A stretch of 64,000 nucleotides of DNA from Candidatus Bathyarchaeota archaeon (GTDB taxonomy: Archaea > Thermoproteota > Bathyarchaeia > Bathyarchaeales > Bathycorpusculaceae). The translations under genes were made by a program, and so were the position numbers. Below are positions 11,266 to 60,182 of this stretch, piece after piece. Within the stretch, counting starts at the first letter, position 1; every line of letters begins with the position of its first letter. The stretch spans positions 1 to 64,000 of the forward strand of contig JAOZHU010000025.1 in NCBI GenBank assembly GCA_026014705.1, given 5' to 3'. Under the pieces are notes generated by a model. That model saw only the letters and a list, made by a program, of their open reading frames with translations. It was not told where the DNA came from and did no database searches.

Positions 11266-11406
11266 GGGGTCGTAGTCTAATCAGGCATGACGTTGGGCTC
11301 CAGAAACAGCTCTGGGTATGCTGACCCCTCACGGGGGATGACTTAATTCTGGAGCTTGCTTGAAGATACCCAAAGGCTGAGTGTTCAAATCACTCCGACC
11401 CCACCA
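11266..11406 (+). tRNA. tRNA-Trp (CCA anticodon), intron-containing, 3' CCA encoded
   Basis: The acceptor stem pairs GGGGTCG (11266-11272) with CGACCCC (11396-11402). The D stem is GTC/GAC. The anticodon stem is TTGGG (11293-11297) with CCCAA (11369-11373). The loop CTCCAGA carries anticodon CCA at 11300-11302, and the T arm is GAGTG-TTCAAAT-CACTC. The discriminator A at 11403 is followed by an encoded CCA. The loop is interrupted after G37 by a 64-nt intron. The cognate synthetase gene trpS lies 10 kb downstream. Confidence 0.95.
11304..11367 (+). other. tRNA-Trp intron with box D'/C'-like hairpin
   Basis: The 64-nt intron sits between positions 37 and 38. A bulge-helix-bulge can be drawn in which C32, U33 and C35 pair with GAAG (11362-11365), with one C-A mismatch at C34. 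The two 3-nt bulges are then cut after their second base, as archaeal splicing requires. Inside, CTGA (11321-11324) and GGATGA (11336-11341) flank a CCCC/GGGG hairpin, like a D'-C' pair of a box C/D guide. The 7 nt upstream of CTGA (from 11313) pair with 11366-11372 and would target C39. Confidence 0.7.
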
Positions 11407-17613: not shown

Positions 17614-17737
17614 GGGTTTGCCGGTCAGAGGGCGCGGGTCCCACCTGATCCCATTCCGAACTCAGAAGTTAAACCGCGTTCCGTTCCCAACTGTAGTGTG
17701 GTCTTCGGCCACGTGAACTTGGGAAAGCTGGCAGCCC
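17614..17737 (+). rRNA. rrf: 5S ribosomal RNA
   Basis: Conserved 5S landmarks are present: GGTCCCACCTGATCCCATTCCGAACTCAGAAGTTAAACC in helix II/loop B/helix III (17637-17675), and the TTGGGAAAGC region near 17719-17728. The ends pair (GGGTTTGCCGG near 17614 with CTGGCAGCCC near 17728-17737), with one bulged base. Length is about 124 nt. No 16S or 23S rRNA is in the window, so the 5S gene is unlinked, as is common in TACK archaea. End positions are accurate to a few bases. Confidence 0.93.
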
Positions 17738-58533: not shown

Positions 58534-58544
58534 TGTATGTGGTG

Positions 58545-58551
58545 AAAAAAA
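58545..58551 (-). terminator. T-run terminator of the ncRNA candidate
   Basis: Seven consecutive T on the minus strand follow the closing helix after eight nt (AACCACCC). Archaeal transcription ends at such T-runs with or without a hairpin. On the plus strand the same site reads as A7, so it does not serve the hydrolase gene upstream. Confidence 0.5.
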
Positions 58552-58731
58552 GGGTGGTTGAGGGAAAGAGTCTATTTTCGGGATTGTTTTTTTCAGAAAG
58601 CCGTGGCGAGCAAAGCGCTCATTGATATCCCCGTAAGCGTGATTTGCTTGTGGAACAGCCTCTTTGCAGCAATGGCGTTATTGCAGTTTTCTGAGGCTTT
58701 GAGATACTGAGACTTTGACTCTTTCCCTCAC
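58545..58731 (-). ncRNA. Candidate structured ncRNA, unknown class
   Basis: Two perfect 14-nt arms, 58559-58572 and 58717-58730 (TGAGGGAAAGAGTC on the minus strand's first arm), close a loop of 144 nt. Inside are further helices: AGCCTC/GAGGCT (58693-58698 with 58657-58662) around a GCAAT/ATTGC hairpin (58669-58684), AAGC/GCTT (58635-58649) and GAGC/GCTC (58608-58620). On the minus strand a TATA-like TTATATTC (58759-58752) lies about 24 nt before the 5' arm, and TTTTTTT (58551-58545) follows the 3' arm. No known RNA class is recognised. Confidence 0.6.
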
Positions 58732-58846
58732 GGTATATATACTCAGAGAAAGAATATAAGGTTTTAGTTTGTTGATTGTGTTCATTCGTTGCTGTTGCAT
58801 GTGGTTCATGTAAAAATAGCCTCTGCGAACTGGCGCGTGGAGAAAA

Positions 58847-59519: not shown

Positions 59520-60182
59520 TCAAGCAGTTTGTGGCGGCGATTGCAGACGTTTTTTGGATAGGGCTACGACGGCTGTAGCGAGAACCAGTAAGAGGGCAAC
59601 TGCGAGTACGCCGAATTCGGGAATAACGTTAACAGAGCCGTCGACGGTCGTGTGCTCAATCAAGTTCGCGGGTTCACCGGCAGCGGGATAATCTGCGAGT
59701 TCTGACTCTAACTCGAGGGCAGTTTGCCCTAAGCCAGTGACGTTGAAAGTGATTATTGCTACGTTGCCGCTGCCGCTGAAAGAAGGTGCAGGATTAACAG
59801 ACGTAGCCACAATATGGTATTCACCGGTGGTTGGGGATAGAGTTTCTTCTATGATTTCAATTGGCGAATTAGGCAGTTGCTCATGGAGCACGCCGTCACT
59901 ATGCGATTCCACGCCTAACCGCGAGTTCACGCTTAACGCTTGGAGAACCGAAGCGTTCCAGCGAAGCGCGATATCTAAGCCATACAAATTCTGCACGTTA
60001 TTGATAGTGATGTTAACCACGAAGGTTTCGCCTAGAACAGGTGAACTTGCGGAGGGAACAACGCTCACTGTTACGCTTGACGCAGCCTGCGCCAGAGCAG
60101 CTTGAACCAGAAAGAATGCAACCAGCATCAGAAGTAACGTGAACACAAAGTTATAGAGCCTTAGGGAAAATTGGGTTTTCAT
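59520..60182 (-). CDS. Secreted cohesin-domain protein with PEF-CTERM-like anchor
   Basis: This 220-residue protein has a signal peptide at residues about 10-33 (LLLMLVAFFLVQAALAQA). A cohesin-like beta-sandwich follows (about 35-170), with FVVNITINNVQNLYGLDIALRWNASVLQAL and SGSGNVAIITFNVTGLG. The C-terminal end has VIPEFGVLAVALLLVLATAVVALSKKR, the arrangement of a PEF-CTERM surface-sorting signal. Cohesins bind dockerins; a dockerin-like protein is encoded at 61438. The gene overlaps a membrane-bound wHTH protein gene by 4 nt. Confidence 0.8.
   Translation of the reverse strand: MKTQFSLRLYNFVFTLLLMLVAFFLVQAALAQAASSVTVSVVPSASSPVLGETFVVNITINNVQNLYGLDIALRWNASVLQALSVNSRLGVESHSDGVLHEQLPNSPIEIIEETLSPTTGEYHIVATSVNPAPSFSGSGNVAIITFNVTGLGQTALELESELADYPAAGEPANLIEHTTVDGSVNVIPEFGVLAVALLLVLATAVVALSKKRLQSPPQTA

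Follow-up and report, generated by a model that had tools for sequence, protein, structure and literature searches.

The analysed window, a stretch of 64,000 nucleotides from a Candidatus Bathyarchaeota genome (G000), carries on its minus strand an element that, on comparative sequence grounds, is a genuine RNA gene belonging to a new family. The explanation that we favour, and consider rather probable, is a stand-alone structured non-coding RNA of ~180 nt, representing a new family as yet seen in one order of Bathyarchaeia and perhaps working as the trans-acting RNA part of a ribonucleoprotein (RNP). At the level of sequence, the support consists of a promoter whose position is conserved, covariation in a closing helix (P1) and in an inner hairpin (P2), conservation of the core and, in most members, a terminal U-run. 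Stand-alone structured small RNA genes are known as a general kind; this particular family has no counterpart among those described. Bathyarchaeia are abundant, mostly uncultured and little studied, and new archaeal structured RNAs of unknown function are rare leads; for this one, the alignment of 19 members, its covariation, the promoter and the end that resembles a terminator allow tests of expression and of binding partners to be designed at once.

Two arms on the plus strand, TGAGGGAAAGAGTC at 58559-58572 and GACTCTTTCCCTCA at 58717-58730, delimit the element, and direct reading confirms the initial, sequence-only claim that they are exact 14-nt complements enclosing 144 nt. The minus strand of 58540-58740 folds with -51.6 kcal/mol, whereas its shuffles average -37.5 (sd 3.7; z = -3.78) and 0 of 200 fold as well, which bears out the proposal of a highly structured minus-strand RNA. 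The transcript would be ~180-190 nt long, with its 5' end near 58730-58735 and its 3' end within the U-run. Both signals proposed for such a gene are present, with small corrections of their spacing: the TATA-like box CTTATATT ends ~22 nt before the helix (~30 nt before P1 overall, on the minus strand), and 7 nt past P1 comes the A-run, which the minus-strand RNA would carry as U7. Other members show TTTATATA or CTTAAATA at the position that matches CTTATATT. The window also holds a second TATA-like candidate closer to P1 (TATATATA-like, ~58733-58741), and because the script chose this closer TATATATA, the box listed in Table 1 was taken by eye.

Table 1. Positions of the RNA gene and its parts in the window.
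Feature	Position	Strand	Basis
RNA gene	58545..58735	-	covariance-model family (19 loci), placing of the promoter and of the U-run, fold z -3.8
TATA-like box CTTATATT	58753..58760	-	sequence and upstream comparison
P1 5' arm UGAGGGAAAGAGUC	58717..58730	-	sequence, fold, alignment
P1 3' arm GACUCUUUCCCUCA	58559..58572	-	sequence, fold, alignment
P2 5' strand AGCCUC (some relatives AGCUUC)	58693..58698	-	alignment
P2 3' strand GAGGCU (some relatives GAAGCU)	58657..58662	-	alignment
Core segment AAUCACGCUUACGGGGAU, consensus YUCAAACUUACGCRAAUA	58627..58644	-	alignment columns
Hairpin at P3 position, GAGC-GCUUU-GCUC	58608..58620	-	fold and alignment, moderate pairing support
U7 run, presumed archaeal terminator (A-run on the plus strand)	58545..58551	-	sequence

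Relatives were obtained through successive covariance models. When 61 related genomes were searched at the nucleotide level, two real homologues emerged, in G028 and G012, the former matching both ends of the element in register (E 4.7e-5 and 0.31). On inspection both carry the two arms, the same inner P2 hairpin and the U-run, with G012 showing AGCUUC/GAAGCU at P2 in place of AGCCUC/GAGGCU. A model built from these three sequences (R1: window, G028 and G012) was searched against 91 genomes of the family and found ten more loci with E-values from 6e-29 to 0.0018, the best matches within the same GTDB family having 6e-29, 5e-23, 7e-15 and 5e-14. A search of the order with its successor R2 brought four additional loci, of which L094, L096 and L097 belong to a second family. 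With R3 the search was extended to the class; it contributed L154 and lifted L153 to E 1.5e-13, a value to be read knowing that L153 (the same locus as L126, first found by synteny) was among the training rows of R3. Synteny thus shows that some copies had diverged past the reach of the earlier models. Of the 257 class genomes, 20 matched at E <= 0.01, or 19 after removal of one coding false positive. The family comprises 19 loci including the window (18 further copies), one per genome and all within one order of Bathyarchaeia.

The candidates L098 and L155 were rejected on inspection as false positives, while L099 and L100 (the latter at the same place as L155) have weak E-values of 0.015 and 0.033. 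Among 398 genomes of the phylum only members of the same family matched, a weak result as to wider spread because six candidates per genome were scored; the first-look filters applied genome-wide passed few candidates per genome to scoring, and absences elsewhere are to be read accordingly. A pattern scan of GTDB contigs recovered three Bathyarchaeota records (A05DMB-2, palsa_986 and SRBZ_5) together with three bacterial matches taken as chance. Among the titles listed by literature searches, none points to a comparable Bathyarchaeia RNA. The distribution is patchy, which counts against the favoured explanation.

What the members have in common is the P1 closing helix, usually the P2 hairpin, an unpaired core leading into P3 and usually the U-run. 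The core, whose consensus starts with a YUCAAACUUACGC-like segment, is drawn single-stranded and ranks among the most conserved interior columns. In P1 the letters vary while the pairing is kept, as in GAGGGAAAGAGUC/GACUCUUUCCCUC, GGGAGAGGGA/UCCCUCUCC, GAGGAUAAGAGC/GCUCUUAUCCUC and GGGGAGAGAAU/AUUCUCUCCCC, and in one variant with a single mismatch, GAGAAAAAAACC/GGUUUCUUUCUC. The sequence-only reading had named beforehand, as findings that would speak against it, arms missing in relatives and base changes that destroy the pairing; the arms are present and the changes preserve it. Its claim of at least four inner helices holds in part: P2 is conserved with compensatory changes and the hairpin at the P3 position, which in many relatives reads AUAGCA-loop-UGCUAU and is paired in 73% of cells across members, is weakly supported, whereas the remaining small helices of the single-sequence fold are unconserved across the members.

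Covariation in helices P1, P2 and P3 was assessed on a structure-blind MAFFT alignment (A5) of all 19 members. With shuffles that do not keep the relatedness of the members, two-sided changes occur at 10 pairs against a shuffled mean of 5.8 (1 of 500 shuffles as high) and in 26 cells against 10.4, and the covariation score is 0.134 against 0.077 (0 of 500 as high). Paired cells amount to 86%, compared with 43-51% when the partners are slid, a percentage that leans in favour of the structure because this was drawn from the member sequences. Hence, the helices covary above both the shuffled and the slid controls, as a structured non-coding RNA should; P1 contributes most strongly, P2 is present and P3 is weak. 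For the first 13 sequences the pairs with two-sided changes (4, against 3.7 shuffled) were not above shuffles, therefore the covariation support came with the added sequences. It should be noted that the single-sequence folds of L086, L092 and L093 do not favour P1, which counts against the favoured explanation. Two subgroups (L081-L085, L087, L089, L094 and L096) have another possible partner for the 5' strand of P1, namely the segment just before P2 (UGAGG/CCUCA or GGAGAG/CUCUCC), with a combined shuffle p of ~7e-5 in which related members are counted as independent; the remaining members are without this alternative, perhaps a switch or an intermediate of folding.

Concerning gene anatomy, nearly all members have a TATA-like element 30-33 nt upstream of P1, weak in L094, and most have a run of 4-7 U after P1, weak or missing in L094 and L096. 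No long open frame is common to the members. Nor is any gene neighbour constant across groups, since neighbour families and downstream orientation differ between them, while the position is stable within groups; this combination speaks for a self-contained gene that is passed on vertically. The copies in L110, L111, L112 and L116 lie between rpl30 and rpl15 in the ribosomal operon, where the extra genes fam4 and fam5 are found alongside the RNA, and the G081 copy has the same fam4-like gene nearby. With a covariance family and preserved pairing in relatives, the initial proposal of an independent RNA gene of unknown class gains support.

In the mechanism that we propose, the RNA would be transcribed from its own TATA box and would end in the U-run, P1 would close it into a stable particle, and the closed helix would bring the core (the ACUUAC segment and P3) beside P2. 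With less certainty, the RNA may then serve a ribonucleoprotein as its trans-acting RNA component; the core and P3 would form a putative protein or target contact, and the letters of P1 could change freely provided that the pairing is kept. We infer action in trans because no neighbour gene is constant, and our best guess is an RNP scaffold with the core as putative binding site, because the core letters are kept while the helix letters drift. A further step, possible but doubtful, is that of a lineage-specific Bathyarchaeia RNP whose RNA is unrelated to described families and whose function is unlike that of any known archaeal RNP.

The main rival, which we regard as unlikely, is a base-pairing regulatory sRNA, in which the unpaired core (CAAACUUACGC-like) would pair with mRNAs and P1 would guard the ends. 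A core that is conserved and drawn unpaired, and a gene with its own promoter and U-run, are what such an sRNA would show; however, this core is fixed across two families, and most mRNA-targeting sRNAs are less conserved than that. In addition, complementarity to rRNA is at chance, the longest stretches complementary to the own rRNAs of six genomes being at the level of shuffled RNA. A cis-acting, riboswitch-like leader that controls the adjacent gene and uses the alternative P1 pairing to switch could account for that pairing before P2 in two subgroups and for the terminator-like end, but it is disfavoured and highly improbable, as the RNA in the window heads for a convergent gene from its 3' side and, in place of the constant gene that a leader calls for, the downstream gene family and its orientation differ between groups. 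Least probable of all is a MITE-like non-autonomous mobile element with the arms as terminal inverted repeats. The perfection of these repeats, the patchy distribution and the different loci between groups would suit it; against this, there is one full-scoring copy per genome, with second rows at noise level, where a mobile element would be multi-copy, the arm letters change with the pairing kept, the arms enclose neither the promoter nor the U-run, syntenic positions are stable within groups, and two exact patterns searched against viral contigs found no copy.

Strong divergence from one of the known classes (RNase P or SRP RNA, a guide of the box C/D or H/ACA type, or a Y RNA) is also a very unlikely origin of the element, even if its size fits some of these classes and archaeal RNAs can diverge. 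An Rfam search of the window reports a 5S rRNA and two tRNAs and nothing at the element, a permissive search of the element gives two chance-level matches only, and the 19 members have no convincing family match in Rfam 15. Archaeal RNase P RNA (RF00373) and SRP RNA (RF01857) are likewise stand-alone, structured, single-copy archaeal genes, but they are longer (~300 nt) and have conserved motifs of their own. Neither matches the element, and both sit elsewhere in G000 (C24:59567-59880 and C42:8872-9187, respectively), in agreement with the original observation that it lacks the features expected of them; among the 16 genomes tested, RNase P RNA was located at other places in 15 and SRP RNA in all 16. 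Archaeal box C/D and H/ACA guide RNAs share with the element a small size and stand-alone archaeal genes, but box C (RUGAUGA) occurs in 0 of 19 members, D-like CUGA is only sporadic, and no member has an Rfam match to H/ACA sRNAs. Y RNAs, which go with Ro60, are similar to the element in the long closing helix that joins their two ends, in an interior that varies and in the U-run at the 3' end; the element differs in that its conserved letters include an unpaired core, its P1 letters change and it lacks a Ro partner, the TROVE protein (PF05731) being absent in the 91 family genomes in a search whose positive control was found in one control genome. The stand-alone RNA of a new family remains our preferred reading. 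It resembles the orphan structured RNA candidates of Weinberg et al. 2010 (PMC2864571), which are likewise intergenic, found by covariation and of unknown function; compared with these, the element has no Rfam 15 match and, as far as searched, belongs to one Bathyarchaeia order.

A final point concerns other features of the window and genome. The genes for 5S (window 17617-17736, C38), 16S (G000:C14:5599-7093) and 23S rRNA (G000:C1:33249-36270) are on different contigs, so that the assembly, at any rate, does not place them near one another. Rfam assigns a 138-nt tRNA to window positions 11266-11403, which ARAGORN (bacterial settings) does not report and whose length suggests that it carries an intron. 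The gene at 59520-60182 adjoins a gene for a MarR/DUF7343-type regulator; its product has a cohesin domain (PF00963, E 1.5e-9), and the tail at the C-terminus resembles a membrane anchor.
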